A stretch of DNA of 64,000 bases from Streptosporangium becharense (GCF_014204985.1 NZ_JACHMP010000001.1:3782001-3846000), one strand, 5' to 3'; positions 26,006 to 59,713 are shown, numbered from the stretch's first letter. Program-made: numbers and translations. The notes: generated by a model not told the origin, from the letters alone.

Positions 26006-26218
26006 ATGGCGCGCTCCTCACTCACGGCGGATCTGGCGGGCGCGGCCGGTACGGCGCTGCGCTGGCTGGCCACGGTGCTGCCTGGCCTGGCCGGTCTGGC
26101 GCTGATGGCTTACGGCGCGTGGCTGGCCTGGCCGCCGGCCGGATGGATGACGGCTGGCGGGCTGCTGCTGGTCGACCGGGCGTGGGAGCAGATCCGCACC
26201 GATCGGAGCGAGCCGTGA
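26006..26218 (+). CDS. Small membrane protein between terminase and portal
   Basis: The 70-residue protein has a strong hydrophobic hairpin at about 15-55. GAGGAGGACG precedes the ATG, and the stop overlaps the portal's GTG. Small membrane proteins at this position occur in actinophages; the role is unknown. Confidence 0.65.
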   Translation: MARSSLTADLAGAAGTALRWLATVLPGLAGLALMAYGAWLAWPPAGWMTAGGLLLVDRAWEQIRTDRSEP

Positions 26219-28229: not shown

Positions 28230-29615
28230 GTGCTGGAGTTCCTGCGCCAGCAGCTCGCGAAGCTGCTGGAGGAGAGGGCCGCGCTGAAGACCGAGCTGGA
28301 CGCCGTCCTGACGGCTCCCCGGGCTGAGCAGCGCGACCTCAACGACGAAGAGGCCGCCGCGTTCGAGCAGAAGCGCGACGCGATCAAGGCCAAGGACGAC
28401 GAGATCGAGCAGCGCCGCGAGCGCATCGCCGAGCTGGAGGAGGACGAGCGTCGCGAGGCCCGCGCCGCCGAACTGACCGCCCAGTACGGCCAGACCGGCG
28501 AAGCCCGGGAGCGCGCCTCCGGCGTGCAGGTCACCGCCGAGCCGGAGACCTACCGCCGCGGCGGCACGGCCTCCTACTTCCGGGACCTGGTGCGCGCCCA
28601 GCTCCACGGCTCCCGCGACGCGATCGAGCGGCTGGCCCGCAACGACCGCGAGGTGAAGGCCGAGCTGGAGAAGAGGGCGCTCAGCACCACCGATGGCGCT
28701 GGCGGCGAGTTCGTCCCACCGGCATGGATGATGGACGAGTGGGTGGGCCTGGCCCGCGCCTCGCGGGTGGTGGCCAACCGGCTGCGGTCGATGCCCCTGC
28801 CGGCGGGTACCGACTCCATCAACCTGCCGCGCCTGGCGACCGGTACGGCGGTCGCCGAGCAGGCGACGCAGAACACCGCGATCCAGAACACCGACGCCAC
28901 GACCAACGCCGTGACAGCCGCGGTGGCCACGATCGCCGGTCAGCAGGTCGTCTCGCTCCAGCTCATCGAGCAGAGCCCGATCAACATGGACGATGTCCTC
29001 CTGGCGGACCTGGCCGCGGACTACGCCATCAAGGCCGACGTCTTCGTTCTCACGAACAACGCCGCCGGGAAGCGCGGCCTGCTCAACGTGTCCGGCGCCA
29101 ACGCCGTCACCTACACGGACGCGAGCCCCACGGCGGGCGAGCTGTACGCCAAGGTCGCCGACGCGATCCAGCAGATCCACACCGGCCGGTTCATGCCGCC
29201 GGATGTGATCTTCATGCACCCGCGCCGCTGGGCCATGTTGCTGAGCGCGCTGGACTCCGCGGGCCGGCCGCTGGTGACTCCGGCAGCCAATGCGCCGCAG
29301 AACGTGATCGCCGCCGTCGGCACGATCAACTCGGAGGGGTTCGTCGGGTCGATGCAGGGTCTGCCCGTCTTCGTGGACCCGAACATCCCGATCAACCTCG
29401 GTGCCGCGACCAACGAGGACCGGATCATCGTCGCGCGCAGTTCCGACGTGATCCTGTTCGAGGGCACCCCGCGCAGCGAGACCTTCCGGGAGACGAAGGC
29501 TGCCGAGCTGTCCGTGCTGCTGCGCTTCTACAACTACGTGGCGCTGCACAGCGAACGCTACGCGAAGTCGATCAGCGTGATCAGCGGTACGGGTTTGGTT
29601 ACCCCGACGTTCTAG
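28230..29615 (+). CDS. HK97-fold major capsid protein
   Basis: The 461-residue protein has an N-terminal ~100-residue coiled-coil delta/scaffold domain, then 'GGTASYFRDLVRAQ' and the capsid core with 'GGEFVPPAWMMDEW', 'FMHPRRWAMLLSALD' and 'LPVFVDPNIPINLG'. The start GTG 28230 has AAGGAGGG upstream. The maturation protease upstream should remove the scaffold domain. Confidence 0.95.
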   Translation: MLEFLRQQLAKLLEERAALKTELDAVLTAPRAEQRDLNDEEAAAFEQKRDAIKAKDDEIEQRRERIAELEEDERREARAAELTAQYGQTGEARERASGVQVTAEPETYRRGGTASYFRDLVRAQLHGSRDAIERLARNDREVKAELEKRALSTTDGAGGEFVPPAWMMDEWVGLARASRVVANRLRSMPLPAGTDSINLPRLATGTAVAEQATQNTAIQNTDATTNAVTAAVATIAGQQVVSLQLIEQSPINMDDVLLADLAADYAIKADVFVLTNNAAGKRGLLNVSGANAVTYTDASPTAGELYAKVADAIQQIHTGRFMPPDVIFMHPRRWAMLLSALDSAGRPLVTPAANAPQNVIAAVGTINSEGFVGSMQGLPVFVDPNIPINLGAATNEDRIIVARSSDVILFEGTPRSETFRETKAAELSVLLRFYNYVALHSERYAKSISVISGTGLVTPTF

Positions 29616-33946: not shown

Positions 33947-34215
33947 CGCTCGCCCTCGGCTGCACCGTCGCCGAACTGCTCGCGCGGATCAGCGCACGTG
34001 AGCTGGCGGCCTGGCAGGTGTTCGAGCGGCTGACCGGCCCGATCGACCTGCGCGAGCGGATCGACGCCGCCGCCGCGCTGATCGCCGAGCGCATCACCAA
34101 CTGCCTCACCGAGACCAAGGGCGAGCCGCCCGAGGCCGCCGACTTCATGCCGCGCTGGGACACACAGCGGATCGAGTGGGAGCAAGGGGGAGGCGACGAT
34201 GGCGACGATTCGTAA
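33904..34215 (+). CDS. T-part of the tail chaperone GT fusion (-1 frame)
   Basis: The open -1 frame (33619-34215) past the G stop encodes 'LALALGCTVAELLARISARE' and 'LAAWQVFERLTGPIDLRERI', a normal GT extension, with no start codon of its own. I give 33904 as an approximate fusion point at a weak G-GAT-TTC slippery site; no canonical heptamer is seen. It overlaps the tape measure start. Confidence 0.7.
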   Translation, partial: GFRRRPERLAHHRLALALGCTVAELLARISARELAAWQVFERLTGPIDLRERIDAAAALIAERITNCLTETKGEPPEAADFMPRWDTQRIEWEQGGGDDGDDS

Positions 34216-37114
34216 CCTCCTCATCCGGCTCGGGGTCGACTTTTCCGAGCGCGGCATCAAGAAGGCCGAACGGGCGGTCGCACGGTTCGAGAAGCGGCTC
34301 GTCGGGGTGAGCGGCCTGGCGGCCAAGGGCGCCGGCCTGGCGTCCCTGGCCGGCGCGGCGACCTCCCTCGGCGTCGCCCTGGCCCCGGCGACGGCCGCCG
34401 TGGTGGCCCTGCCCGCAGCGCTGGCCGCTGTCAAGGTCGCCACCGGGGTGGCCAAGGTCGGCTTGGTCGGCATGGGTGACGCTATGAGCGCCGTGGCCGA
34501 GGGGGATGCCAAGAAGCTGGCCGAGGCGATGAAGAAGTTGTCGCCGAACGCCCGCGCCTTCGTCAAGGAGACGGGTGGCCTGAAGAAGGCGTTCGACCCC
34601 GTCCAGCAGGCCGTACAGAACAGGTTGTTCGAGGGACTGGCCGCACCCATGGGCAAGGTCGGCCGCGGTCTGCTGCCGACCGTGCGCAAGGGCATGCTCG
34701 GCGTATCCGGCGCCCTGAACGGCATGGCCAAGGAAGCCCTGAAGACAGCCAAGTCACCGATGTTCAAGAAGGACCTCGGCAAGGTCTTCACAGGCACCAC
34801 CGGCATCGTCAAGACGCTGACCGGCGCGGTCGGCCCGCTGCTGACGATCGTGTTGAAGCTCGCCACCGCAGGAATGCCACTGGTCAAGCGGATGGCCGAG
34901 TGGGCGGTCAGCGGCGCCAAGGCCGGGGCGGCGTTCCTGAAGTCCAAGGAGGGCGCGGCCCAGATGGCGGGCTGGGCCACGAAAGCTGGCAACACCCTCG
35001 CTCAGCTCGGCCGCATCGGTAAGAACCTCGCTGGGTTCCTCGGCGGGATATTCAAGAGCGCCAAGGGCTCCGGTGACGGCGTCCTGACCACCATCGAGCA
35101 GATCACCGCCCGTATGGCGGCCTTCTCCCAGTCAGTCGGCGGCCAGGCCCGGATGACCGAGGCGTTCCGGCTGCTGCTGGAGATCCTGCGTGCGGTGGTC
35201 GGAGTGCTGCCCATCTTCCTCGGGCCGCTGGGTGCCGTCCTGAAGATCATGACCGCGTTGCCGGGCCCGGTGCGCGGCGTGGCCGTGCAGCTCCTCGCCT
35301 TCTCCGTCGTCGCCGTGGCCTTGGGCGGCAAGCTCAGCTTCCTGTTCAAGACGATCACGACCGTGTCCACGGGTGCCATCGCGGCTGGTGGCGCGATGGT
35401 CAAGTTCGGATCCGGCTTGATTCGGGGCGGGGCGGCGCTGGGGGAGAACGCCTCGGCCGCCGCCCGCGCCGGCGCCGCGGTGCGCTCCTTTGGCGGCGCC
35501 GTCTCCCGGGGCGTCATGACCAGCGCGAGCATGGTGACCAACCTGTCGGCGCTGGCGTGGGAGAAGGGCAAGGTCGCCGCCCAGGCCGCCATCGCCACCA
35601 CGCGCACGGTGGCCATGACCGTGGCGCAGAAGGCAGCGGCCGTCGCCTCCCGCGCTCTGGCGATGGCGACCCGGCTGGTCAACGCGGCGATGCGCGCCAA
35701 CCCGATCGGGATCGTCATCACGCTGCTGACCGCCATCGGCGCGGCCCTGGTGCTGGCCTACAAGAAGAGCAGCACGTTCCGGGCGATCGTCGATGGTGCG
35801 CTGCGCGCGGTCGCCGCAGCCGGGCGGTGGATGTGGAACACCGTGCTGCAACCGATCTTCTCGACGTTGGCGCGGGTCATCACCGTGACCGTGCCGAACG
35901 CCTTCAAGGCCGGGGTCGCAGCGATCGGCAGGTTCTGGGGCAAGATCCAAGAGGTCGCGCGCAAGCCGGTCGCGTTCGTGGTCAACACCGTGTACAACCA
36001 GGGAATCCGCCGGGTGTGGAACTGGGTGGCCTCCAAGGTCGGCCTCGGTCAGCTCGACGAGATCAAGGGCTTCGCGGCTGGCGGCATCCTGCCCGGTTAC
36101 TCCAGCCGCGACGACCGGCTCATCATGGCCCGCAGCGGTGAGGGCATCTTGGTGCCGGAGTTCGTCCGTGCGCTGGGGGCCGATTTCATCCACCGGGGCA
36201 ACGCCGCCGCCCGGCGCGGCGGGCCGAAGGCGGTGGCCAAGGAACTCGGCATCGCCGGTGACCCGGGCGGGCTCGGCATCCCGGGGTTCGAGCGGGGCGG
36301 CATCGTCGGTGCGATCGGCGGGTTCTTCGCCAAGGCGAAGAACTGGTTCGTCGAGGGATTCATGAACGCCGCCCGCGCCGCCCTCAACCCGTTGATCACC
36401 GGTACGGCCAGTGCGGTCGGCGGGACCGGCATCGGGCAGTTGATGACCGGCGTGGTCCGGTCGCTGGTGGGTGGCGCCCTGAAGGCGTTTGTGCCGGTCC
36501 AAGGGCAGATCGGCGGGCCGGGCCGGCGCGCGGTCGCGGCGGCGCGCTCGCAGATCGGCGTGCCGTACTCGTGGGGCGGCGGCGGTCCAGGCGGACCCGG
36601 CTACGGGTTCGCGCAGGGCGCCGGGATCCGCGGCTTCGACTGCTCGTCGCTGATGCAGTACGCCTGGCACAAGGCGACGGGCCGGGTCATCCCGCGGACG
36701 ACGTACGCGCAGATCCCGTGGGTGAAGCGCGTGCCCAAGCCGGTGCCGGGCGCGCTCGGGTTCCCGCACTCGGGGCACGTGTTCATGGCCACTGAACGCG
36801 GCACGATCGTGGAGGCGCCGTACACCGGCGCCCGGGTGCGTGAGACCGGGATGCGGTCGGCGTGGTGGGGCATGCCTCCGTGGCAGTTCGACGACGGCGG
36901 CGTACTGCCGCCCGGGATGACACCGGTCTACAACGGCACCCGGCGCCCGGAGTACGTCTTCACCCAGCGGCAGATGCGTGCCATCGGCGGCAACCATTAC
37001 ACGATCAACGTGCGGGTGGCCGCGACCGCCAACCGTGCCGAGATCGGCCGGGAGATCGTCGCCGCCATCAAGGAGTTCGAGCGCGGCAGCGGTGCCTCGT
37101 GGAGGAAGCCGTGA
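34199..37114 (+). CDS. Tape measure protein with NlpC/P60 peptidase
   Basis: The 971-residue protein sets tail length. Residues 1-120 have 'IRLGVDFSERGIKKAERAVA' and a hydrophobic Ala-rich part, with several membrane-like stretches up to ~560. The C-terminal ~780-890 is an NlpC/P60 hydrolase: 'SQIGVPYSWGGGGPGGPG', catalytic Cys in 'GFDCSSLMQYA' (~814) and His in 'SGHVFMA' (~859), for local cell-wall cutting. GGGGGAGG precedes ATG 34199. Confidence 0.93.
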   Translation: MATIRNLLIRLGVDFSERGIKKAERAVARFEKRLVGVSGLAAKGAGLASLAGAATSLGVALAPATAAVVALPAALAAVKVATGVAKVGLVGMGDAMSAVAEGDAKKLAEAMKKLSPNARAFVKETGGLKKAFDPVQQAVQNRLFEGLAAPMGKVGRGLLPTVRKGMLGVSGALNGMAKEALKTAKSPMFKKDLGKVFTGTTGIVKTLTGAVGPLLTIVLKLATAGMPLVKRMAEWAVSGAKAGAAFLKSKEGAAQMAGWATKAGNTLAQLGRIGKNLAGFLGGIFKSAKGSGDGVLTTIEQITARMAAFSQSVGGQARMTEAFRLLLEILRAVVGVLPIFLGPLGAVLKIMTALPGPVRGVAVQLLAFSVVAVALGGKLSFLFKTITTVSTGAIAAGGAMVKFGSGLIRGGAALGENASAAARAGAAVRSFGGAVSRGVMTSASMVTNLSALAWEKGKVAAQAAIATTRTVAMTVAQKAAAVASRALAMATRLVNAAMRANPIGIVITLLTAIGAALVLAYKKSSTFRAIVDGALRAVAAAGRWMWNTVLQPIFSTLARVITVTVPNAFKAGVAAIGRFWGKIQEVARKPVAFVVNTVYNQGIRRVWNWVASKVGLGQLDEIKGFAAGGILPGYSSRDDRLIMARSGEGILVPEFVRALGADFIHRGNAAARRGGPKAVAKELGIAGDPGGLGIPGFERGGIVGAIGGFFAKAKNWFVEGFMNAARAALNPLITGTASAVGGTGIGQLMTGVVRSLVGGALKAFVPVQGQIGGPGRRAVAAARSQIGVPYSWGGGGPGGPGYGFAQGAGIRGFDCSSLMQYAWHKATGRVIPRTTYAQIPWVKRVPKPVPGALGFPHSGHVFMATERGTIVEAPYTGARVRETGMRSAWWGMPPWQFDDGGVLPPGMTPVYNGTRRPEYVFTQRQMRAIGGNHYTINVRVAATANRAEIGREIVAAIKEFERGSGASWRKP

Positions 37115-40240: not shown

Positions 40241-41233
40241 ATGCCTATCGACCTCATCAGCCGTGCCGCGTGGGGTGCTCGCGCGCCGAGCGGCTCCTAC
40301 ACCGCGCTCGCCGCGACCCGAGGTGTGAAGGTCCACTACACCGGGGGCCACGTGGACCCGGCGACCCTGACCGACCACAACCGGTGCGTGGCTGCGGTGC
40401 GCGGCATCCAGAACGGTCACATGGACGGCAACGGCTGGATGGACATCGGCTACTCGGCCGTCGTCTGCGGGCACCGGAAGGTCTTCATCGGCCGCGGCCT
40501 GCACCGCGTCCCGGCCGCGAATGGCCCCGGCCTGAACGGCGGCCATTACGCCGTGCTCGGCCTGGTCGGCACCTCCGGCGTCGTCGCCCCGCCGGAGGCG
40601 ATGCTGCACGGCATCCGCGACGCCATCGAGTGGCTGCGTGACGAAGGCGATGCGGGGGCCGAGATCAAGGGTCACTGCGACGGCTACGCGACGAGCTGCC
40701 CCGGCGATGCGCTGTACGCCTGGGTCCGCGCCGGAGCGCCTCGCCCGTCCACGACCACCCCGCCCGCCGAACCACCCACAGAGGAGGAAGAAGTGCCCGA
40801 AGTCGTCTCGCTCGGCCTGAGCGCCGAGGCCACCGTCAAGCCGAACATCACCCATCAGCCCTGGTGGACCGGGGAGTACCGGGACACCGCGGGCTGGCAT
40901 CCGGCCGGCGGCCAGTCGATCGCGCCGGATACGGACGTGTGGGCCGACCTGGTGGCGTTCATCGCGCTGCGCGGCCTGGCACCTGGGGAGAAGGTCGAGG
41001 TCGGCTTCACCCGGCACGCGGCCGACGGCTCCCTGGTGGACTACGCCTGGCCGAACGGCCGACTCATGGCCGTCTACGCCGACGCCGACGGCCGAGCGGA
41101 GGCGAGTATCAACGGCCACTTCAAGCTGTCGGCGACCACCCGCGGCCGGGTGACCATCCGGCACGCCAGCGCGGGCACGGTCACGCTGGAGACCGCCTCC
41201 GCTTTCAAGGGCATCCTGCACCGCTACGCCTGA
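40241..41233 (+). CDS. Endolysin: N-acetylmuramoyl-L-alanine amidase (PGRP type)
   Basis: The 330-residue enzyme cuts peptide stems from glycan. The N-terminal ~170 residues are amidase/PGRP: 'ISRAAWGARAP', zinc His in 'VKVHYTGGH', 'IGYSAVVCGHRKVFIGRG', and 'IKGHCDGYATSCPGDALYAW'. After a Pro/Thr/Glu linker (170-190), a C-terminal ~130-residue domain is probably for cell-wall binding. AGAGGAGG precedes the ATG. Confidence 0.92.
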   Translation: MPIDLISRAAWGARAPSGSYTALAATRGVKVHYTGGHVDPATLTDHNRCVAAVRGIQNGHMDGNGWMDIGYSAVVCGHRKVFIGRGLHRVPAANGPGLNGGHYAVLGLVGTSGVVAPPEAMLHGIRDAIEWLRDEGDAGAEIKGHCDGYATSCPGDALYAWVRAGAPRPSTTTPPAEPPTEEEEVPEVVSLGLSAEATVKPNITHQPWWTGEYRDTAGWHPAGGQSIAPDTDVWADLVAFIALRGLAPGEKVEVGFTRHAADGSLVDYAWPNGRLMAVYADADGRAEASINGHFKLSATTRGRVTIRHASAGTVTLETASAFKGILHRYA

Positions 41234-41281: not shown

Positions 41282-41473
41282 ATGATCAAAATAGGAAGCA
41301 TGGCCAAGGCCATCGTGGCTGCCGGCTCGGCCGGCCTGGGGGCACTGGTGACCGCCATGGACGACAACGTCATCGTGACCGGGGAGTGGGTCACGGTCGG
41401 CTTGTTCGTGCTTGGCGCCCTTGGCGTCACCTATGTCGTGCCGAACGCCGAGCGCTCAGACCCGCGCCGGTAG
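41282..41473 (+). CDS. Small holin-like membrane protein
   Basis: The 63-residue protein has two membrane helices (8-28 and 36-55) and a charged tail, as in class II holins of actinophages. It is the last late gene; GGAGGG lies upstream and a terminator follows. Confidence 0.7.
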   Translation: MIKIGSMAKAIVAAGSAGLGALVTAMDDNVIVTGEWVTVGLFVLGALGVTYVVPNAERSDPRR

Positions 41474-41495: not shown

Positions 41496-41530
41496 GGCCC
41501 CGGTCCTCTTGAGAGGACCGGGGCCTGTTT
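41496..41530 (+). terminator. Strong intrinsic terminator ending the late operon
   Basis: GGCCCCGGTCCTC and GAGGACCGGGGCC form a perfect 13-bp stem with TTGA loop, followed by T-rich TGTTTCCTTTT. It separates late genes from the convergent cargo. Confidence 0.9.
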
Positions 41531-41535
41531 CCTTT

Positions 41536-42246
41536 TCACCCCAGCCAGAAGGCAGCGAGTGACCACTTCTGGGCCCCACTTGTGGAGCCGTCGTGCGGCG
41601 CGAGTTCGGTCGGCGCGATGTATCCCTGGCCGGGCTCCAGGCGGATGCGCAGGCACCGTAAAGGGTGCCCGTCGGCGACGTATCGGCGCACGTCATCGGT
41701 GTGCGGGCAGTGCTGCTCCCGGTCACGGCCCAGGACGCGGCAGATTTCCATGACGTCCCGGTCACCGACCAGGAGGTAGCGGATCCCCGGGCCGAAGTTG
41801 ATGCACAGCCGTCGGCGGCTGTGCTGCCGGGCCGGATACGGCAGCCGGTCCCAGTTGTCCACGTGCAGTCCGATCCTTCTGCCGACCGCCGTGTCCTCGG
41901 TGGAGGTGAGCAGCCCGGCCGGGCTGCGCGTGTAGACGTGTCGTCTGCGTGGCCAGCGGCCGTTCAGCGGGTCGAGAGCGGCTGCGGCGTCCACACGGCC
42001 TTGCAGATCGTCGGAGGCGAAGACCGGCAGATCCTGGCTGACCAGTTCGAGTGTCATGCCGGGCGGCGTTTCGGCGTCGGGCCGGAGTCGTTCGGCCTCT
42101 TCCTCGCCGAGGGCTGTCCAGTTCTCCTGGGGGACGACGGCGGCGCCGTCGTCGTAGCCCGGCGTGTCGCCTGCCTGCCGGACGTCCCCGATGTCGATAC
42201 GCCCCTGGATGTCGTCGAACCGGTCGAACAGCAGCCGTACGCCCAT
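41536..42246 (-). CDS. Putative Fe(II)/2-oxoglutarate-type oxygenase of the RiPP cluster
   Basis: The 236-residue protein contains H128-x-D130 ('GLHVDNWDRLP') and a distal His218 ('APTELAPHDGST'), the H-x-D...H facial triad expected of non-heme Fe(II)/2OG oxygenases. 'RRRLCINFGPGIRYLLVG' would be a core strand pair. In known cyclophane-peptide clusters (recalled families named YhhA/B/C) an oxygenase of this kind hydroxylates the cyclised peptide. GGGAGG lies 8 bases before the ATG. It is last in the minus-strand operon. Confidence 0.6.
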   Translation of the reverse strand: MGVRLLFDRFDDIQGRIDIGDVRQAGDTPGYDDGAAVVPQENWTALGEEEAERLRPDAETPPGMTLELVSQDLPVFASDDLQGRVDAAAALDPLNGRWPRRRHVYTRSPAGLLTSTEDTAVGRRIGLHVDNWDRLPYPARQHSRRRLCINFGPGIRYLLVGDRDVMEICRVLGRDREQHCPHTDDVRRYVADGHPLRCLRIRLEPGQGYIAPTELAPHDGSTSGAQKWSLAAFWLG

Positions 42247-42277
42247 GTCTTCGCCTCCCGTGCAGCTGGCTGGGGTC

Positions 42278-42940
42278 CTACTCGAAGGTGATCTCCAGCT
42301 CGGCCGCGAACGCCTCGGCGAGGCCCTGGAGCTGCGGCCGATCGACGATGACCTTCTTGAGCGCGCTCACTCCGCGAAGGCCGGACAGGTCGTTGCCGCG
42401 CAGGTCGCAGCCACGATAGGTGCCGCCGTCGAACTCGGTCAGGTGCAGGTCGCACTCGTCGAACGCCACGCCGCTCAGGTCGGCCGCGGAGAACCTCGCT
42501 TCACGCAGGGAGCAGGAGGAGAAGATGACCGGCCCGGTGGCGCGTACGCGAGTGAAGGCGGCGAGATCGAACTTGCACCGCTCGAAGACCACGTCATCGA
42601 ACGTGGTCTCCTCCCACACCGCGCCGAGCATCCGGCAGTCGGTGAAGACGACGCGGGAGAGCTTGCTGTCCGCCCAGCGGAGGCCGGACAGGTCGCAGCC
42701 GGAGAACTCGACCGAGTGCAGGCGCAGCTCGTCCAGGTGGGCACGCTGGGTGGTGAGGCCGGTGACGCGCCCGTCCATGAGCTGGGTCTCCGACAGGGAA
42801 AGCTCGCGCAGTCGGGCATCGGCGTATCTGAACTCGCGCAGCTTGCCGTGCTCGTCCTCCAGCGAATCGACCTCGTCCAGGTAGGCGTCGTCCAGGTCGG
42901 GCAGCGTGACGCTCGTCCGGCGTACGGTGCGTGTGTCCAT
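42278..42940 (-). CDS. Pentapeptide-repeat protein, possible self-immunity
   Basis: The 220-residue protein has an acidic N-terminal 45 residues then a right-handed beta-helix of A(D/N)LxX-like units ('FSGCDLSGLRWADSKLSRVV', 'FTDCRMLGAVWEETTFDDVV'). Members such as McbG and AlbG protect gyrase from peptide or other poisons made nearby; the immunity role is inferred from its place in the cluster. ATG 42955 is the longer alternative. Confidence 0.8.
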   Translation of the reverse strand: MDTRTVRRTSVTLPDLDDAYLDEVDSLEDEHGKLREFRYADARLRELSLSETQLMDGRVTGLTTQRAHLDELRLHSVEFSGCDLSGLRWADSKLSRVVFTDCRMLGAVWEETTFDDVVFERCKFDLAAFTRVRATGPVIFSSCSLREARFSAADLSGVAFDECDLHLTEFDGGTYRGCDLRGNDLSGLRGVSALKKVIVDRPQLQGLAEAFAAELEITFE

Positions 42941-43006
42941 CGTCCTGCTTTCCATAGAGGAGATACGTGGTCCGCCGTGGGCGCGAGGAGACCGCGCCCA
43001 CGGCGA

Positions 43007-43201
43007 TCATCTGCTACTTCTTCTTGCCCCAGTTGTCCCAGCTCGGCCTGTTGTCGAATCCCCCTTCTTCATGTTGTCCCAGCTCGGCTTGTTGTCGAAC
43101 TTGGCGGCTCGCATCGGAGTGGGGTTCTCAAGGGTGCTGGTACCGATCAGCTCGTCGACCACCTTCGCATCCGTGGTGGTCAGGTACTCCAGCATGGTCA
43201 T
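43007..43201 (-). CDS. RiPP precursor with tandem aromatic-Asp-Asn core, second repeat out of frame
   Basis: In the visible frame it is 64 residues: a leader (1-34) and core 'KFDNKPSWDNMKKG' (about 34-47), then a meaningless tail to 43007. In the +1-shifted frame the same DNA gives FDNRPSWDN-WGKKK ending at 43014. The two copies match over 27 bases (43073-43099 and 43032-43058) but are offset by 41, not 42, bases; a sixth C in the run at 43060-43064 would restore an in-frame 14-residue tandem. ATG 43201 overlaps the radical SAM stop, with AGGAG upstream. F-D-N and W-D-N are fit substrates for three-residue cyclophanes. Confidence 0.75.
   Translation of the reverse strand: MTMLEYLTTTDAKVVDELIGTSTLENPTPMRAAKFDNKPSWDNMKKGDSTTGRAGTTGARRSSR
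43032..43099 (-). repeat. Two 27-bp core repeats offset by 41 bp
   Basis: 43032-43058 and 43073-43099 differ at one base. Each codes for F-D-N-(K/R)-P-S-W-D-N. The 41-bp offset breaks the frame. Confidence 0.85.
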
Positions 43202-44334
43202 GCCGCGATCTCCTTTTTGGTTGTGGTGTACAGAGCGGTGATGAGGGCTTGACGGGTGAGCCGGCAGTAGTCGGTCTCCGTGGCCGTGAAGGTGCCGTGC
43301 TCGAAGTAGCGGTTGCCCGCCTGGGCGCCGCGGCAGAAGGCGAAGAACTCGCATTCGGCCTGGCAGCGAGACAGGCCGGTCATGAACTCGGCGACGTAGC
43401 GCAGCCGATGCGCCTGAGCCAACATGCTGGCGATGGTCTGATGGCGGACGTTCCCGGCGAGGAAGTCGCCGTAGGCGTCGTCGCTGATGCCCGCCAGCTC
43501 GGGTGACATCAGCACCACGTCCCCGTCGACCGACACTGTCGGAATCGGGTCGAGGCCGTGTCTGCACCACTCGTCGCGCTGCCCGCTGCGGGCGAGGTGC
43601 AGATAGTCGGTGACCCGTTCAAGCTCCCGCAGTGCGGGCCCTCCGCTATGGGTCCTGCGCCAGTCCAGGACCCGTTGCCAGAACCGCTCGGCCTGGTCCC
43701 GGGTGATCCCGCACTGTCGATCGTTGACGCCTTCCATCTCCTCCACGTTCAGGCCGACGGTGTGCGGCCCCAGGTCCGCGAGGAAGTCCAGGAGGGCTTC
43801 GGGCCACTCCATGCCCTCGGTCCCCACGACGGCGATCACGCTGAAGCGGATGCCGCGGTCACGCAGGCGGCGGATGCCGCGCACGATCCGGGCGAAGGCG
43901 GGCTGGCCGCGCAGATCAACCCGCCGGGCGTTCAGTGCCGCCGGGCCGTCGATGCTGACGCCGACACGGACCTGGTAGCGGGCGAGCAGATCGCACCACT
44001 CGTCGTCGATGAGGGTGGCGTTGGTCTGCACGCTGTGCTGAATCCGTCCCGCCTGACGCAGGCCCTCGAACGGCGCGAGCAGCGCGGTGAACTTGCTCCG
44101 GCCCAGGGCGAGAGGCTCCCCGCCGTGCCACACGATGTCCAGCGGGTTACCAGGATCGGCCAGCTCCGCCGCCGAGTCGGCGACGGCCTGGGCGACCTCG
44201 GGGGACATCTCGCTGCGGAGGCGCCGGTGCGGCAGATAGCAGTAGCGGCAGTCGAGGTTGCACAGCGTGGTCGGCTGGAGTACCAGGGTCCTGGCCCGGC
44301 CGAACCACCGATCGAACTCTGATCGCCCTTCCAT
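43198..44334 (-). CDS. Radical SAM/SPASM peptide maturase (cyclophane-forming type)
   Basis: The 378-residue enzyme has the SAM-cluster motif C25-N-L-D-C29-R-Y-C32, 'VWHGGEPLALG' and 'VGVSIDGP' (SAM binding). The C-terminal SPASM cysteines include C257, C324, C328, C334 and C357. Length and motifs fit the FxsB/GrrM/AmcB-like group that links an aromatic ring to the beta-carbon two residues on. Its stop overlaps the precursor ATG, a tight coupling. No RRE domain is obvious. Confidence 0.9.
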   Translation of the reverse strand: MEGRSEFDRWFGRARTLVLQPTTLCNLDCRYCYLPHRRLRSEMSPEVAQAVADSAAELADPGNPLDIVWHGGEPLALGRSKFTALLAPFEGLRQAGRIQHSVQTNATLIDDEWCDLLARYQVRVGVSIDGPAALNARRVDLRGQPAFARIVRGIRRLRDRGIRFSVIAVVGTEGMEWPEALLDFLADLGPHTVGLNVEEMEGVNDRQCGITRDQAERFWQRVLDWRRTHSGGPALRELERVTDYLHLARSGQRDEWCRHGLDPIPTVSVDGDVVLMSPELAGISDDAYGDFLAGNVRHQTIASMLAQAHRLRYVAEFMTGLSRCQAECEFFAFCRGAQAGNRYFEHGTFTATETDYCRLTRQALITALYTTTKKEIAA

Positions 44335-44535: not shown

Positions 44536-44712
44536 TTACCGGGATCGCCTGCGCAGGAGGGGGACGAACGTCGCGACCAGGGCCGCCACGCACAGCGCGA
44601 TCATCACTGCGAGAACAGGCGTCGGCACCGAGTCCGGTGAAGTCACCACCCAGCCGGCGAGGGCCAGGGTGCCGACGATGAAGATCACATTTCCAACGTG
44701 TTTGAGGTTCAC
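44536..44712 (-). CDS. Small two-helix membrane protein in cargo
   Basis: The 58-residue protein has membrane helices at 6-24 and 31-50. GTG 44712 is supported by GGAG 7 bases upstream; the longer frame has no such support. Strong hairpins flank it. Role unknown. Confidence 0.6.
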   Translation of the reverse strand: MNLKHVGNVIFIVGTLALAGWVVTSPDSVPTPVLAVMIALCVAALVATFVPLLRRRSR

Positions 44713-44912: not shown

Positions 44913-45575
44913 TTATGGGACCGGCACGTCGGCCGGCCGTAGGTCATGCAGTTCGACGATGAGCTGAGTGGCCAGCGTCCGGCCGAACAGGTGCGGCTCG
45001 TCCAGGCCGACACTGATCTGGTGCCGAGTCTCGACCACCCGGCCGTCGCCGTCTTGGGCGTACAGGTTGCCTAGCACGCCGATCGGGCGGTAGTCGCCCA
45101 CCGTGCAAACGACCGGCGACCCCTTCCGCAGATGCGGGCAGGCGGCCAGCGCCTCGGCGATGTGGGCCCTGCACGTGGGCGGGCCAGCCGTGGGCCAGGT
45201 GGCTGGCAAGTCATCAGGGGCGGCAGGGATGATCCACCACGTCCGATTGGGCTCGCCGGGGTCTTTGGCGCTCCGGCCGCAGACCCGGCACAGCCGCTTG
45301 AGCATGCACCTGCGCTGACGCAGCGTGTGGATCATGGGCCACAGCACCTTCGTGCCGCGCCCGATGCCGCACCGGGCCCACAACATCCCGAACATCCAGT
45401 CCTGAACGGTGGCATCGGTGTAGGCCAGCCGGGGCACGCCTCCCTGCCGCTCGAAGATGAGCGGCAGGGAGGCGACCTCCTCGGCGTACGGGGTGACGTA
45501 CGGCTTGCGCGGCGAGGCAGTCACGACGGCGCCGAGGTGGATCTCCCCCGCGGCACGGACGTCGGGCGTCGTCAT
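44913..45575 (-). CDS. Hypothetical protein with zinc-binding cysteines
   Basis: The 220-residue protein has 'LKRLCRVCGRSAKD' in the middle, then 'CRAHIAEALAACPHL' and a C-terminal beta part ending 'IVELHDLRPADVP'. C-x2-C...C-x11-C suggests a structural zinc. This protein recurs in actinomycete XRE-linked clusters; no function is known. ATGA overlap with the upstream gene. Confidence 0.72.
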   Translation of the reverse strand: MTTPDVRAAGEIHLGAVVTASPRKPYVTPYAEEVASLPLIFERQGGVPRLAYTDATVQDWMFGMLWARCGIGRGTKVLWPMIHTLRQRRCMLKRLCRVCGRSAKDPGEPNRTWWIIPAAPDDLPATWPTAGPPTCRAHIAEALAACPHLRKGSPVVCTVGDYRPIGVLGNLYAQDGDGRVVETRHQISVGLDEPHLFGRTLATQLIVELHDLRPADVPVP

Positions 45576-46018
45576 CGTGCGCTCCGGCGTGGACGACGCG
45601 GGCGGGCCGGGTAAGGACTCCGCCCGCCCGCGTCCCGCACAACGCCGACACCGCGCCGCGCTGCGTTGTGCGTTACCTGCGGCACGGCGGCGTGCGCCTG
45701 GGAAAGTGCGGTGCCGCCGTGCCTGCTCTGGGGAGGGACGGGGAGCGCGGGCCAAGCGAAGGAGGTCTCCGCCTCGCGCATCCGCTCCTCCAGCTCCTCG
45801 GGGGTGTCGGATTCGACCATCAACGGCTCGGGCACCGGCCAGGCCGCGATGGCGTAGAAGCGGCGGCTGCCCAGGCTGTAGAGCACGCCCCAGCCCGGCC
45901 ATGCAGCGGTCAGCCGCTCGGCCTCGGCGCGGGCCGGGCCGTCCCACAGACGGCGGTGCACGGCGGCCGGGGCCAGGCCCGCGCGGTGCCGTCCGGGTGT
46001 GCGGGAGCGCCCGATCAT
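45572..46018 (-). CDS. Hypothetical protein
   Basis: The 148-residue protein has a basic N-terminus and 'AWPGWGVLYSLGSRRFYAIA' around residues 40-60, and an acidic helix. The last 50 residues are low-complexity Arg/Pro. It overlaps both neighbours by ATGA. Unknown function. Confidence 0.65.
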   Translation of the reverse strand: MIGRSRTPGRHRAGLAPAAVHRRLWDGPARAEAERLTAAWPGWGVLYSLGSRRFYAIAAWPVPEPLMVESDTPEELEERMREAETSFAWPALPVPPQSRHGGTALSQAHAAVPQVTHNAARRGVGVVRDAGGRSPYPARPRRPRRSAR

Positions 46019-46947
46019 GAGACCACCCGCTCAGCGGTCTCTTCCTGCGGGGTGGTCTCGGCCACCCGCTTGGCGATCTCTTCCTGCCGGGTGACCTCGG
46101 CCTGTACCTCGTCGAAGGTGTCGGCGTCCACGGTGGGCTCGGCTCCGGCGCGCAGCGCGCCCCGGGGGAACCGCGTGCGGCGGATGGCCCAGAAGCGGCC
46201 CTTGTCGCTGATGATCAGTCGCCAGCCGGGAATCGTGGGGATCGCGGGGGCGGGTGTTGTGGACCTAGCATCTTCCATGGATCGGACCTCCATCCGATCA
46301 AGGACCCGTTCTGTCGTGTACGGCGACAGGCGGGTCCGCCTTATGTGGTGGGGAAGAAGTGCCTGGAGCGCGCCGTCCGGTACGGGCGGGCGGTGCGTCG
46401 GTGGAGTGGCTTTCGCCTGCCCGGCGCTGCGGACGCTCGTAATGCGGCCGGGCGCGGGGCGCGGGCGGTCGCCGCGCCGGGCCGGCCTGGTGGCGGCGGG
46501 GCGTGACCCGGGCCGGAGGAAGGGCCGGGGCGTCCGCCTGGGCAGCGGCGGCGGTACGGCGGGCGCGGCCGGAAGCGGGGCCTGCTGCGGTACGGCGGGC
46601 GGGTCCGCGGCGGGAACGGGCGCGGGGGTCTGCTGGACGGGCGGCTCGGGGCGGCGCTGCGCGGGCACCAGCGGGATCACCTCGACCGGCGCGACATCGG
46701 CGGGCGGCTCGACGCGGGGGAGGACCTGTGGGCCGCCGCGGTGCCGGGCCTCCAGGCGCGCGTTCATCAGCGCGCCGTCCGGCTGGACGTAGTCGTGATC
46801 GGTGGGCTGGCCGGGGCAGCCGTGCGCGTAGGGGGCGTGCCCGCAGACGGCGCAGCCCATCGGCATCGGTGACGCGTCGGCGAAGCAGCCGCAGCCGTCT
46901 CCGAGCGCCATAGTCCGGTCGAGAACCGGGGCGCTAAGGTTCGTCAT
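46015..46947 (-). CDS. Hypothetical protein, possibly two genes in one frame
   Basis: The N-terminal ~70 residues have 'CGCFADASPMPMGCAVCGHA' and end in 'QPDGALMNARLEARHR', a zinc-knuckle pattern common in actinomycetes. A Pro/Ala/Arg-rich middle follows. An internal ATG at 46278 has TGGAGG 8 bases upstream inside a hairpin and starts an 87-residue protein ('IPGWRLIISDKGRFWAIRRT'). Its leader shares CGG(G/A)TCC-TTGATC with the leader of the 46947 start, so I think two translated products are likely. Confidence 0.6.
   Translation of the reverse strand: MTNLSAPVLDRTMALGDGCGCFADASPMPMGCAVCGHAPYAHGCPGQPTDHDYVQPDGALMNARLEARHRGGPQVLPRVEPPADVAPVEVIPLVPAQRRPEPPVQQTPAPVPAADPPAVPQQAPLPAAPAVPPPLPRRTPRPFLRPGSRPAATRPARRGDRPRPAPGRITSVRSAGQAKATPPTHRPPVPDGALQALLPHHIRRTRLSPYTTERVLDRMEVRSMEDARSTTPAPAIPTIPGWRLIISDKGRFWAIRRTRFPRGALRAGAEPTVDADTFDEVQAEVTRQEEIAKRVAETTPQEETAERVVS
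46280..46299 (-). promoter_or_regulatory. Hairpin with ribosome site in its loop
   Basis: GATCGGA and TCCGATC form a 7-bp stem; the minus-strand loop TGGAGG is the ribosome site for ATG 46278. It may modulate translation. Confidence 0.45.
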
Positions 46948-47128: not shown

Positions 47129-48307
47129 TCAGACCACGCCAGCCCATTCGGCGAAGCTGATCAGGCTTTCACTGTTGGCGCGGTACAAGCGCAGCAGGGT
47201 CTCGGCGTCTTCGCGGACCCACGGGTGCTCTCGTGTGTGCTGTGGCGCGATTCGGCGAGCTGTCTTCAGCGACTCGAAAGCGGCGTCTTTCAGACCGGCC
47301 CACAGTTGTGCCCTGGCTAGGTCGATGAAGAAGCCAGACCTGCGTTCGGCTGGCATCTCAAGAGGCGGTGACCAGCTCTCACCCAGGGCGAGGGCGAGTT
47401 GGAGGTGGCAGTCTCCGAGACCGAGGGCGACGGATACTTCATGGACGCGGACAGAGCATGGGCCGAACGCGGTCCCGTAGTAAATATCTTCAGGGACTAA
47501 GTCACCGAGTCGCCGAGCCTCGCTCAGATGGGACATAGCGGCGTCGGCGTTGGCCGCTCGTGCTGCGATGACGGCTGCTCTCATATGCAGAGACCCCAGG
47601 ACGCCCAGACGCGAGCGCCCTGCTTTTTCCGGTAGGCGGTCGATCGCAGCTTCGATTGCGCGTAGACCTGCGTGGTATGCGTGCGCGGCAAAGAATACTT
47701 CGGTTCGCACATACGCCGTCGATGCGCTGAGAAGAGGATCCTCGGTGGTGGCCGAGGTCTGGCGCATCAATTCGATCAATCGAGCTGACAGATCCAGGTA
47801 GCCATATTTGTAGGCGACCGCATCGGCTGCACGGTAGGTGGCCACGAGTAACGCCGCGATGTCGTCAGGGTTGGCCGTCGAGTGAACCCCGCGGATGAGT
47901 TCGCCGAGTAGGCCAGGCAGAGTTTGCGCTAACCGTATGTACTGGGCGCTCAGGCGCTTTTGAACCACGCTGGCAACGGATGCTCGAAGCGCGGGCACAG
48001 GGCGCACCGGTCCCTCGTCGGGGACGTCGTAGGCGGCGATGACCTCGCGCAGTGCAGGGATCGCGTCGTGGACGCGGCTGTCGAGGCGGCCGGAGTTCCC
48101 CAGGAGGCGGGACGGGTCGACGCCCAGGGCAGCGGCAATGGCGTCCAGGACGTGGTCGCTGGGCACACGCGTACCCTGCTCGATCTTTCGGAGCATGCTG
48201 AGGGAGACGTTGGCCGCCTGGGCAAGGTCGTCCTGCTTCATGCGGCGTGTACCGCGAATCGCGGCGATGCGACCTCCGAGGCCGTTCCTGAGAGCTTCAC
48301 GGGGCAT
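47129..48307 (-). CDS. XRE regulator with TPR-like helical repeats
   Basis: The 392-residue protein has an N-terminal HTH (10-70: 'MKQDDLAQAANVSLSMLRKI'). From ~110 to 380 it is helical with TPR-like repeats. Such actinomycete regulators often bind peptides or partner proteins and sit beside RiPP or conserved small clusters. GTG/ATG position 48307. It is the likely regulator of the leftward cargo genes. Confidence 0.82.
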   Translation of the reverse strand: MPREALRNGLGGRIAAIRGTRRMKQDDLAQAANVSLSMLRKIEQGTRVPSDHVLDAIAAALGVDPSRLLGNSGRLDSRVHDAIPALREVIAAYDVPDEGPVRPVPALRASVASVVQKRLSAQYIRLAQTLPGLLGELIRGVHSTANPDDIAALLVATYRAADAVAYKYGYLDLSARLIELMRQTSATTEDPLLSASTAYVRTEVFFAAHAYHAGLRAIEAAIDRLPEKAGRSRLGVLGSLHMRAAVIAARAANADAAMSHLSEARRLGDLVPEDIYYGTAFGPCSVRVHEVSVALGLGDCHLQLALALGESWSPPLEMPAERRSGFFIDLARAQLWAGLKDAAFESLKTARRIAPQHTREHPWVREDAETLLRLYRANSESLISFAEWAGVV

Positions 48308-48319
48308 GCCGCCTCCAAA

Positions 48320-48964
48320 TTAACTTTCTGACAGGAGAGAAGGTAGCTCCGTGATGCTGTCAATGCGCCAATCCACTGAACTGAGAGTGGCTGCATCGTT
48401 TCCCCATAGGTGCCCCCAGGGGCCTCGCCGGATTATGCAGGTGCGCAGACCATAGAGTTTTGCGGGCAGGATGTCGTTCGCGGGGTGGTCGCCTACGTAG
48501 ACTGTTTCATGAGCAGGCGTCTTCGCGAGCTGTAGAACTTTGCCGAAGAATTCTGGGTCGGGTTTCGCGACGCCCCATTCCTCCGATGTGACGATCACGT
48601 CGGCAGGGATCGACAGTCCGCGCAGAAGATCACCGGCTTTGCGGGTCTGGTTCCCGGCGACGCAGACGCGAAAACCTGTGTCACGAAGAGCTTGCAACCC
48701 GGTCCGGACGTCGGGGTACAGGTCGGTCTCATCGAGGTACTCGCCCTGGCCGGCCTCCTCGCGAGCTTGGCGCAGCGCACGCGGGTCGATGTCCGGCCGG
48801 AGGAGGCGTATCGCCTCTGCGTTGTCCATGCCTAGGGCTGTCACTGCCCCTACCAGAGCAGACAAGGTGTGGCGGGGAATGTTAAGCCAATCCGCCCATG
48901 ATCCCCAGTACCGGTCATCACGAACCAGCGTCTCGCCTATGTCAAATACCACGGTCTTAACCAC
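48320..48964 (-). CDS. HAD-family hydrolase
   Basis: The 214-residue phosphatase-like protein has motif I 'VVFDIGETLV' (nucleophile D, note I-G-E rather than D-G-T), motif II 'VAGNQTRK', motif III Lys in 'WGVAKPDPEF' and motif IV 'VYVGDHPANDI'. The substrate is unknown. GTG 48964 is used; TACCCT lies 7 bases upstream on the minus strand, so it is probably leaderless. It ends 12 bases from the XRE gene start. Confidence 0.85.
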   Translation of the reverse strand: MVKTVVFDIGETLVRDDRYWGSWADWLNIPRHTLSALVGAVTALGMDNAEAIRLLRPDIDPRALRQAREEAGQGEYLDETDLYPDVRTGLQALRDTGFRVCVAGNQTRKAGDLLRGLSIPADVIVTSEEWGVAKPDPEFFGKVLQLAKTPAHETVYVGDHPANDILPAKLYGLRTCIIRRGPWGHLWGNDAATLSSVDWRIDSITELPSLLSES

Positions 48965-48971
48965 ACATGGG

Positions 48972-48977
48972 AGGGTA
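48972..48977 (-). promoter_or_regulatory. TACCCT -10 box for the HAD gene
   Basis: On the minus strand TACCCT is followed by 7 bases and GTG 48964. There is no ribosome site. Confidence 0.4.
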
Positions 48978-49337
48978 GGCCAGTTCGCTGCCGTTCGTAG
49001 CGCGGGTACGGCAACTACCCATAGGAGCGCTGACGGGGTCTTGTGGTCGTGCTCAGTCACCATTGAGGATCTTGGAGCTGGGGAGGTTATAGAGGCGTTC
49101 CGTATGTCCGTCTTGACGGCAGAGCCGCATTGCCGCCGACGAGTCGTAGGCGCCGCACGGCTGGAACCGCCTGGGAAGCTGTCCAGCCGTGCGGCAGCCC
49201 GTGCCCTCGCCGCGATCGCGGGTCGCGATGCCGGGAAAGGTGAACATATCTCCTGTACTGGTATTGCGCTATAGGACATTTTTGTCACCCTGGGGCCATT
49301 TTGGAGAGGGCGTTCTGTGAATATGCACCTGAACATA
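48978..49337. other. Gap with one hairpin and no gene
   Basis: No supported gene is seen. A perfect 13-bp stem (49152-49164 with 49183-49195, loop 18) is present without a T-run. Confidence 0.5.
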
Positions 49338-49375: not shown

Positions 49376-49765
49376 TCATCCGACGGCCGTACGCCGCTCC
49401 GGAACGCCGGCCTCAGCCAGGCGAGCCCGGCGCCGCTCGCGCAGGTTGACGACGCCGAGCCGAGCGCGCTGGGCGTCCAGGAGCGCGGCGCCCTTGCGCA
49501 TCAGCTCGTGGAGCGACTGCTTCTTGATCCCGAGGATCCCGGCGATGTGGTTGATGGAGTAGTCGCCGCCCTCCCTGGCGGCCGAGGCCGCGCGGGCGAT
49601 GGCGCGGAGCTTGGTCTGACGGAGCGCCTCGGCCAGTTCCTCGATGAGGACAAGGTTCGCGGGGTCGTCGGCGGCGTGGTCCTCCATCCGGCGGAAGAAC
49701 CGGGCGAGGTTGGCCGCCAGTTCGGCAGGCTCGGTGACCCGTTTGGTGCGGGGTCCGGGGTGCAT
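49376..49765 (-). CDS. Small HTH protein near the element end
   Basis: The 129-residue protein has 'GDYSINHIAGILGIKKQSLH' followed by 'ELMRKG', an HTH-like recognition arrangement, and helical flanks. ATG 49765 has AGAGGA upstream. Its place next to the attachment site suggests an element-associated regulator or excision factor. Confidence 0.7.
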   Translation of the reverse strand: MHPGPRTKRVTEPAELAANLARFFRRMEDHAADDPANLVLIEELAEALRQTKLRAIARAASAAREGGDYSINHIAGILGIKKQSLHELMRKGAALLDAQRARLGVVNLRERRRARLAEAGVPERRTAVG

Positions 49766-49940
49766 GAGAGTCCTCTCGGAGGTGGCGCGTCGGGCTGATT
49801 CGGTGAGCACGAAGTGAGCACAACGGCGCCGTTGACTGCCAACGACAGTCAACGGCTACAAACACTTCATGTGGCCGTTGAGCTGCATAACCAACGGGTG
49901 CCAACACAGCCGTAAACAGCCAACGGATGGCTTTAGAAGA

Positions 49941-49997
49941 CTGCTAATGCGGTTTGGGTTTACCGCCCATCCGGGGTTCAAATCCCCGAGCCTCCGC
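49941..49997 (+). other. Detached 3' part of tRNA-Ser(GCT): element attachment site
   Basis: From anticodon loop CTGCTAAT through the variable arm, T-arm (CGGGGTTCAAATCCCCG) to acceptor end GCCTCCGC, this matches the 3' half of tRNA-Ser(GCT). No matching 5' acceptor GGAGGC lies upstream. The side missing the 5' half (left) is therefore element DNA. So this is the right attachment site of the element to the left. Confidence 0.85.
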
Positions 49998-57828: not shown

Positions 57829-57901
57829 GCGGCCGTAGCTCAATGGATAGAGCATCTGACTACGGATCAGAAGGTTAGGGGTTCGAGTCCTCTCGGCCGC
57901 G
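57829..57901 (+). tRNA. tRNA-Arg(ACG)
   Basis: 73 bases with complete cloverleaf: acceptor GCGGCCG/CGGCCGC, D-arm AGCTCAATGGATAGAGC, anticodon stem-loop TCTGA-CTACGGA-TCAGA (ACG 57862-57864), T-arm with GGTTCGAGTCC, discriminator G. CCA is not encoded. Confidence 0.97.
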
Positions 57902-57908
57902 CAGATGT

Positions 57909-57951
57909 AAGAAGGCCCTTGAACAGGCGATACGCCGTTCAGGGCCTTCTT
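57909..57951 (+). terminator. tRNA-Arg / integrase terminator
   Basis: AAGAAGGCCCT(T)GAAC and GTTCAGGGCCTTCTT form a 15-bp stem with one bulge. It stops the tRNA, and on the other strand the integrase. Confidence 0.85.
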
Positions 57952-57962
57952 GCTTTTGGTAC

Positions 57963-59173
57963 TCAACCGGTCTCTTCCCCGCCTTTGGGAGCCATCCTGG
58001 GAGCCACGGGCTTCTGTCGTCCCAGCAGAGCTCCCGAGATCGCCGCCGTCGCGGCGCGCTTGTCGCCCTCCATCAGGTGCCCGTAGACGTCCTTGGTGAT
58101 CGAGATGCTCGCGTGCCCGAGGACGTCGGAGACCACGTGCAGCGGCGTGCCCTGGGCGAGCATGAGCGAGGCGCCGGAGTGGCGGAGCTCGTGCGGGTGC
58201 CAGTGGCCGAGGCCGGCCCTCTGCGCCAGCTTGGAGAACAGGTGCGAGAAGGTGTCGGGGTCGGACGGATTGCCGGAAGACGTGGGGAAGATCAGCCCGT
58301 GCTCGGCCCACTCCTGTCCGGCCTGGAGACGCTCGGCGTTGTGCAGGGCCCGGTGCCGCCGAAGCGCGTCGACCAGCTCGGACGTCAGGCACAGCGTCCG
58401 GCGTGACTTGCGGGTCTTCAGCTCGGAGATGACGAGCTTGGTCCTGCGGCCGGCGTCGACGTCGCGGTTCTTGACCCGCTTCACCGCATGCGTCACGCGC
58501 AGGGTGCGGGCGTCGGGATCGAAGGCGCTCCACATCAGCCCGAGCGCCTCACCGCGGCGAAGCCCGAAGACCAGGGAGAGCAGGACGAGCGCCCCCATCC
58601 GGTGCTCGGCGACCGCGTCGAGGAGCTGCCGGGACTGGTCGACGGTGAGCGTGCGGCCCTCGTCGGTGTTGATCCGGGGAGGCATCGACAGCGCCGCGAC
58701 GTTGCGCGCCACCAGGCCCTCACGCTCGGCCTGCCCCAGCGCCTTGCGGAGCACCGCCCGCATGATCCGGACGCTGTTGGGCTTGTACGTCGCCCGCTTG
58801 GCCTGCCAGAGCGCGTCGACGTGGGCCACGGTCAGCGCGGTGAGTTTGTGCCGCCCGAGCCCCGGCTTGAGGTGCAGCCGCACCGTGTCTTCGTAGTCGT
58901 CCAAGGTCGAGTCGGCGACGTGCCCGGGGAGCGTGGACAGCCACCGGTCGAGGAACGCCCCCACGGTGATCTTGTCGTCGGGGACCGGCAGCCTTTGGTG
59001 ATGCCCTCGCGGAGCTTCCGGATCTTCTCGACGACCTCGGCCCGCGTCTTGCCGGAGACCTTCTTGCGGACGCGTTCCCCGTTGGGCCCGTACCCGAGGG
59101 AGATGGCCCCGCGCCACCGGTCGCCGTCCTTGTAGATGGAGTCTTCGTTCTGGCCGCGCCTTTTCGTGCTCAT
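57963..59173 (-). pseudogene. Tyrosine integrase with a single-base frameshift
   Basis: From ATG 59173 the frame is a normal integrase N-terminus ('GERVRKKVSGKTRAEVVEKI') up to about residue 60 ('LREGITKG'), then it shifts; the rest continues in another frame ('LPVPDDKITVGAFLDRWLST') to 57963. One extra C near 58991-58995 would join them. The catalytic domain is intact: 'FGLRRGEALGL', 'HELRHSGASLML', 'LGHASISITKDVYGH'. It sits next to tRNA-Arg, its expected target. It may be a true mutation or an assembly error. Confidence 0.85.
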
Positions 59174-59364
59174 GCCGCGTTCTCCTCTTCCAAATGGGTG
59201 ACGAACTCGACGAGCGCGGTCCGGGGAATCCTGCGGAGACCACCGACGCGAACCGAACGGAGAGCACCCGACCTCATGAGCGCATAGACCTTTGTTCGGC
59301 CAATGCCGAGCAACTCGGCCGCCTTCTCGGGCCGGAGAAGCAAGGGATCGAGGTCACCGGTCAT
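59170..59364 (-). CDS. Excisionase-type HTH protein (left module)
   Basis: The 64-residue protein has 'LLRPEKAAELLGIGRTKVYA' and 'RVGGLRRIPRTALVEFV', the MerR/HTH_17 pattern of Xis. Its stop overlaps the integrase ATG (ATGA). A longer in-frame extension upstream is a shadow of the opposite integrase. Confidence 0.85.
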   Translation of the reverse strand: MTGDLDPLLLRPEKAAELLGIGRTKVYALMRSGALRSVRVGGLRRIPRTALVEFVTHLEEENAA

Positions 59365-59458
59365 GCGGCCGCCAACGCTGGCGAGCGACCCTCCTCGCCC
59401 TACAGGAGAAAGCGACCGGACGGGATCCTTCGGCGACTTCATCTCTGGGAGCGGCTGC

Positions 59459-59713
59459 ATGACCAAGATGACCGGGAAAGAACCCGCCCCGCTACTTCCT
59501 GAGATTGCCCGCGGTCGGCTGCTGACCGTCGAAGAAGTCGCGGAGCGGTTGAACACCACGACCCGTTTCCCCCGCCGCCTGATCGAGGAACGCCGGATCG
59601 CCTTCGTTCGCATCGGGCGCAACGTCCGCACCCCCGAAGCGGCACTTGAGGCGTTCATCGCAGCGGGACTCGTCGAACCGATCACCATCAACCGAGGTAG
59701 GAGGGCCGCGTGA
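59459..59713 (+). CDS. Excisionase-type HTH protein (right module)
   Basis: The 84-residue protein has 'LLTVEEVAERLNTTTRFPRR' and 'RIAFVRIGRNVRTPEAALEA', again Xis-like HTH_17. It diverges from the left module by a 94-base gap that must hold both promoters. The stop overlaps the integrase start. Confidence 0.83.
   Translation: MTKMTGKEPAPLLPEIARGRLLTVEEVAERLNTTTRFPRRLIEERRIAFVRIGRNVRTPEAALEAFIAAGLVEPITINRGRRAA

Follow-up and report, generated by a model that had tools for sequence, protein, structure and literature searches.

Four tightly spaced genes on the minus strand of the Streptosporangium becharense genome form a cassette inside a prophage (Table 1), and all four reading frames are present at the coordinates at which the initial annotation had placed them within the window, as the whole 64,000-nt stretch analysed here is called. 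The order in which the genes stand is shared by many actinobacteria, chiefly at ordinary chromosomal sites, and the chemistry of the cassette is therefore of a known kind. Judged from its sequence, the cassette is a self-contained operon for an AMC-type triceptide, a RiPP with multiple three-residue cyclophanes, and belongs to a known family, so that its earlier assignment to the cyclophane-type RiPPs is borne out and can be narrowed to the AMC/AmcB type. No exporter or peptidase gene was found within the cassette, which leaves the release of an antibiotic without an explanation.

Table 1. Features of the prophage and its cassette in Streptosporangium becharense (GCF_014204985.1 NZ_JACHMP010000001.1:3782001-3846000; 64,000-nt window)
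Feature	Position	Strand	Remarks
attL	7146-7089 bases left of window start (in L034)		tyrosine integrase adjoins
Terminase large subunit	24570-25997	plus	PHROG 9, 1.5e-81
Portal protein	26215-27411	plus	PHROG 12, 5.9e-60
Major head protein	28230-29615	plus	PHROG 2263, 7.3e-63
Tape-measure-like protein	34199-37114	plus	with NlpC/P60 domain
Amidase/PGRP-like endolysin	40241-41233	plus	assigned by eye; no Pfam match
Holin-like small membrane protein	41282-41473	plus	assigned by eye; PHROG of unknown function
Inverted repeat	41496-41525	.	separates convergent phage late genes from cassette; likely two-way terminator
Cassette	41536-44334	minus	order amcB, amcA, pentapeptide-repeat protein, HxD...H protein; tight spacing
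MicC-like 2-oxoglutarate/non-heme iron oxygenase	41536-42246	minus	candidate tailoring enzyme; profile to PDB 9vkm
Pentapeptide-repeat protein	42278-42940	minus	candidate immunity protein; Pfam PF13599
amcA	43007-43201	minus	64-aa in-frame ORF covers the leader and the first FDN-PS-WDN unit; its remaining tail is out of frame
Second FDN-PS-WDN-WGKKK unit of amcA	43014-43058	minus	out of frame
Five-G run	43060-43064 (plus-strand coordinates)	gene on minus	site of amcA frame break
amcB	43198-44334	minus	radical SAM/SPASM cyclophane-forming peptide maturase, 378 aa; NCBIfam NF041718
Small membrane protein upstream of amcB	44536-44688	minus	a copy precedes chromosomal amc in G010
Three small right-arm genes (span 44913-46911)	44913-45575, 45572-46018, 46015-46911	minus
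XRE-type regulator	47129-48307	minus	58% homologue next to HAD gene and integrase in related phage contig G278
HAD hydrolase, right-arm gene	48320-49336	minus
Right-arm gene	49376-49765	minus	the related G006 phage has an 87% identical counterpart
attR	49940-49997	plus	58-bp perfect copy of tRNA-Ser(GCT) 3' end

The genes of the cassette

The maturase scores 523.4 bits against the AmcB equivalog model (NCBIfam NF041718, cut-off 425), 279.1 bits over its whole length against the GrrM/OscB model (TIGR04261), where the cut-off of 310 is not reached, and 121 and 99 bits against the cyclophane maturases YhhB and FxsB. It is squarely an AmcB, and the possibility that it would fall outside the cyclophane groups, for which the initial annotation had allowed, is not what was found. 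The radical SAM and SPASM cysteines reported earlier are upheld by an alignment of 12 homologues, in which C25-x3-C29-x2-C32 and the C-terminal C324, C328, C334 and C357 are all invariant, and the proposed coupling of maturase to precursor holds at the sequence level, the stop codon of amcB overlapping the start codon of amcA in ATGA. The same genome contains no second AmcB. A PADLOC match of AmcB to viperin (46 bits) was rejected as mere radical SAM similarity.

The precursor gene is genuine, and the F-D-N and W-D-N motifs attributed to it are found in amcA, but a frame break which places half of the core out of frame had been overlooked. The in-frame ORF consists of MTMLEYLTTTDAKVVDELIGTSTLENPTPMRAAKFDNKPSWDNMKKG, then DSTTGRAGTTGARRSSR and a stop codon, and so ends in a scrambled tail (...DNMKKGDSTTGRAGTTGARRSSR), while the next frame from the same five-G run encodes FDNRPSWDNWGKKK followed by a stop; the break comes after the second motif and leaves two of the four motifs in frame. 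A read-through copy of the gene scores 72.4 bits against the AmcA model (NF041721, cut-off 40), whereas the actual ORF is frame-shifted. Every one of the 38 other precursors of FDN/WDN type that were recovered reads through without a change of frame, and four aromatic-D-N motifs are usual among them; programmed frameshifting of amcA was set aside because the relatives encode the whole core in a single frame. Since the second repeat is perfectly preserved, the frame break is to be read as one of two things, a recent event or a sequencing error in the G run. Unless it is a sequencing error, this copy probably makes a two-motif product at most, or none, and because of the broken frame a fully ringed product is doubtful here. 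In another genome of the same genus (G006), amcB is reduced to its first third (81% over residues 1-126; L011, L060/L061), apparently the remnant of a decayed cassette.

The pentapeptide-repeat protein recognized in the initial annotation is confirmed by its match to Pfam PF13599 (5.5e-22), and its AlphaFold model (pLDDT 94.6) is a beta-helix with a C-terminal helix at residues 203-214. Profile comparison with solved structures gives EfsQnr (3.9e-25), MfpA (6.9e-17) and AlbG (1.5e-15), and a Foldseek search with the model ranks AlbG first (5.5e-10). AlbG and McbG-type proteins shield gyrase from peptide poisons. Against the curated families, however, the protein scores only 41 for Qnr (cut-off 240) and 37 for MfpA (cut-off 360), both far below the thresholds, and its likeness to gyrase protectors therefore indicates a candidate role only. 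Pentapeptide proteins with non-gyrase roles, such as HetL, Alr5209 and the anti-phage effector HalA, count against the gyrase-protector reading; the similarity of the window protein to HalA is weak and far below the HalA cut-off. Gyrase-type self-immunity conferred by this protein is plausible, as is an antibiotic action of the peptide.

The product of the gene at 41536, which had been singled out as an H-x-D...H protein, has a profile match (6.8e-14) to the alpha-ketoglutarate non-heme iron oxygenase MicC (PDB 9vkm), and its triad H128-x-D130 and H218 is invariant in 16 homologues. It has no match in Pfam or NCBIfam, and its AlphaFold model, in which a double-stranded beta-helix (cupin-like) fold was sought, is poor (pLDDT 51.9). 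Given a MicC-like oxygenase in the cassette, the further oxidation of the peptide that had been proposed is plausible. Third codon positions are the most divergent in both the oxygenase and the pentapeptide genes, which fits selection acting on the proteins.

The prophage and its cargo slot

The element that carries the cassette is a temperate prophage of siphovirus-like type, integrated at tRNA-Ser(GCT) in a Streptosporangium-like host. It is 57.1 kb long and encloses the cassette, which runs convergently with the last late genes. The ends of the element are marked by a perfect 58-bp direct att repeat, which is the 3' end of the tRNA-Ser(GCT) gene, and between the two copies lie integrase, terminase, portal and major head genes identified by PHROG matches, as well as RecT and the tape-measure-like protein, in the usual order. 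The empty site is seen in genome G003, where the DNA to the right of attR directly follows tRNA-Ser (94.6% over 56 bp). These repeats and the empty site establish what had been claimed earlier, namely that the cassette is element-borne and is flanked by the lysis-side genes on one side and the attachment site on the other. Among the phage genes is one for a secreted Lamin Tail Domain protein (window positions 12195-12662).

Two phages related to that of the window by endolysin, in G006 and G278, were compared at the position of the cassette. The phage of G006 (83% endolysin identity) is without amc and holds unrelated small genes in the slot, and it shares the genes at 45572-46911 and 49376-49765 with the window, while the phage of G278 holds other cargo followed by XRE, HAD and integrase genes. 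Since the contents differ among these endolysin-related phages, the interval from the lysis-side genes to the right arm is a cargo slot. In G010 and G012, copies of the genes at 45572-46911 also precede the chromosomal amc genes, and the exchanged unit may therefore exceed four genes. The G006 phage was tested for insertion at the tRNA-Ser used by the phage of the window, and none was found, and the treatment of the G278 phage as a circular contig was unsupported by an end-overlap test.

In genome G121, another RiPP-like cassette (L225, 3247-7721) lies beside a related endolysin of phage type; it contains a radical SAM protein, a methyltransferase (268 bits, cut-off 380) resembling the type found in ATP-grasp peptide systems, and DUF6879/Sco1979-type regulators, with conjugative-element-like genes adjoining. 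To the right of the prophage in the window itself, the region comprising 57829-60921 and, in L035, 71037-72454 (window coordinates) contains a tRNA-Arg and, after it, an integrase gene (57963-58964). To the right of this integrase lies a second xis/int pair (59459-60921), of which a copy (66%) stands another 11.7 kb to the right, with a perfect 44-bp repeat (60981-61024 and 72611-72654). This region is a separate integrative element, or elements, adjoining the prophage.

Occurrence of the cassette in other genomes

AmcB is present in 28 of 299 genomes of the window organism's family and in 18 of 395 relatives of the Streptomyces hiroshimensis genome, and the cassettes of other Streptosporangium-like and Streptomyces genomes lie in the ordinary chromosome. 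The occurrence of the same genes without phage genes, which the initial annotation had raised, is thus real at other chromosomal places, but there is no such case at this spot. A pentapeptide gene lies within 2.5 kb at 39 of 49 AmcB loci, and a pentapeptide gene together with an oxygenase gene is found at 24 of them, the oxygenase being absent from about half; the association of the cassette genes across the 49 loci is far above chance. The AmcBs that stand outside this gene set are mostly deep branches without FDN-type precursors, as judged by the tree and by precursor recovery. The neighbours of chromosomal amc include GajA (Gabija) together with a type IV restriction enzyme in L193 (14591-18295) and, in L180 (1343-4573), a type I restriction enzyme.

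A phage-seed screen of the flanks, which used few seeds and often short flanks and from which more cases may have escaped, found virion genes beside AmcB in S. hiroshimensis only, apart from two short tape-measure-seed matches (G349, G352) that are read as NlpC/P60 similarity. No AmcB was found in the phage, plasmid and viral collections searched, where the only matches were remote radical SAM proteins or GrrM-type plasmid genes. Integrases occur within about 20 kb of AmcB at about seven loci, and there are hints that other integrative elements also carry amc loci. Tyrosine integrases lie within 20 kb of amc in L119, L136, L127 and L189.

The prophage of S. hiroshimensis, which contains a large serine integrase as well as terminase, portal and head genes, splits a host lplA-like gene and supplies a full replacement copy; lplA is whole in 11 relatives, in which the two host halves meet within a few bases. 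An intact amc cassette lies between the tail/holin-like genes and the replacement lplA. The replacement lipoate-ligase-like gene is found at G322:C1:582616-583668 (L111). This phage and that of the window have integrases of different classes and share little, and in a maximum-likelihood tree their AmcBs fall into separate supported clades, each with chromosomal copies. In view of the separate clades and the dissimilar phages, the simplest reading is that phages acquired amc cassettes at least twice, independently. The chemistry of the AMC cassette and the existence of phage-borne RiPPs (sublancin, SPbeta) are already known; what is new, as far as the collections and the open-licence literature searched show, is the presence of cyclophane-RiPP cassettes inside prophages, in two independent cases with proven ends. 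Prophage carriage is a route by which triceptide pathways could move between actinobacteria.

Proposed function and related systems

The best explanation of the whole, to which a rough probability of 0.55 can be given, is that an AMC cassette is carried as prophage cargo and acts in bacteriocin-like lysogenic conversion or in prophage maintenance. AmcB would crosslink F or W to the N two residues on in each F-D-N or W-D-N motif of AmcA, the number of motifs being taken as four, as in the intact relatives; ring formation is ascribed to AmcB because of its family membership and the known chemistry of triceptide enzymes, which join Phe or Trp at position i to Asn at i+2 (PMC11002830). The MicC-like enzyme would then hydroxylate or otherwise oxidise the core, and the pentapeptide beta-helix protein would guard the lysogen, probably at DNA gyrase. 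The regular pairing of pentapeptide genes with AmcA of FDN/WDN type suggests gyrase as a target of the peptide family, for which no target was found on record in the open-licence literature. The peptide itself may serve as a bacteriocin-like lysogenic-conversion or prophage-maintenance factor on the model of sublancin and SPbeta, and by this analogy its antibacterial role would favour lysogens. Sublancin, encoded in prophage SPbeta, kills prophage-free cells (PMC8270828), and this precedent means that a phage-moved peptide antibiotic is not, as had been supposed, new in kind.

The frame break in amcA, the lack of a second AmcB in the genome and the mere fragment of amcB kept by G006 would also fit a decaying passenger without present function, picked up by chance by the phage and with amcA inactivated by the frameshift. 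This reading deserves some weight but is doubtful, because the genes for AmcB, the pentapeptide protein and the oxygenase have open, conserved reading frames, the out-of-frame tail keeps a perfect second repeat, which points to a recent break or a sequencing error, and the copy in the S. hiroshimensis phage is intact. Since the cassette has neither transporter nor peptidase, an intracellular anti-phage role can be entertained instead, in which a cyclophane peptide that is not exported would block other phages, as defence or superinfection exclusion, while the pentapeptide protein would shield host gyrase or regulate the effect. The carriage of the cassette by two prophages, the proximity of some chromosomal copies to Gabija, type IV or type I restriction genes and the weak, far sub-threshold similarity of the pentapeptide protein to HalA are consistent with such a role, as is the finding that the anti-phage lanthipeptides of actinomycetes are intracellular and lie in defence islands (PMC12360287). 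Defence neighbours were, however, examined at two loci only, most loci having ordinary neighbours, and we regard this role as unlikely.

A more far-reaching proposal, that temperate actinophages repeatedly capture, for lysogenic conversion, cyclophane-RiPP cassettes whose unexported, gyrase-directed peptide, with its pentapeptide antidote, excludes rival phages or retains lysogens, is a long shot. A chromosomal island that stands beside the prophage and is not part of it would account for the cassette strand, which is opposite to that of the late genes, and would agree with most amc cassettes being chromosomal and without phage genes, but its probability is negligible: the att repeat brackets the cassette, the empty site in G003 refutes such an arrangement, right-arm genes beyond the cassette recur in related phages, and there is a second prophage case with proven ends. 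For the preferred reading of the cassette as functional prophage cargo, the intact copy in the S. hiroshimensis phage makes the question of a phage-armed lysogen and its pentapeptide antidote testable.

The cassette resembles the AMC triceptides (AmcA/AmcB; NF041721, NF041718) in its maturase, which is above the equivalog cut-off, and in its precursor type, motifs and overlapping gene order, which match those of other actinobacterial loci, and it differs from them in being prophage-borne and in having a broken precursor frame. GrrM/OscB (TIGR04261) is a related cyclophane-forming radical SAM/SPASM enzyme, but the window AmcB is below the cut-off of that family and the precursor is of another type. 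The full beta-helix fold of Qnr, MfpA, AlbG and McbG is present in the high-confidence model of the pentapeptide protein, although identity is about 20% and the window protein has a longer N-terminal coil. MicC (PDB 9vkm) and the window oxygenase have the C-terminal half in common, including the HxD...H and HDGST motifs, but their similarity is remote. The anti-phage lanthipeptides of Streptomyces offer the likeness of an intracellular RiPP in actinomycetes for which export is unnecessary, whereas their chemistry is different and they are chromosomal. Sublancin 168 of the Bacillus prophage SPbeta is a glycopeptide which has its own exporter (SunT) and disulfide enzymes and no homology to the amc cassette, but as a modified peptide encoded by a prophage together with a dedicated immunity gene it provides the model of lysogen advantage.
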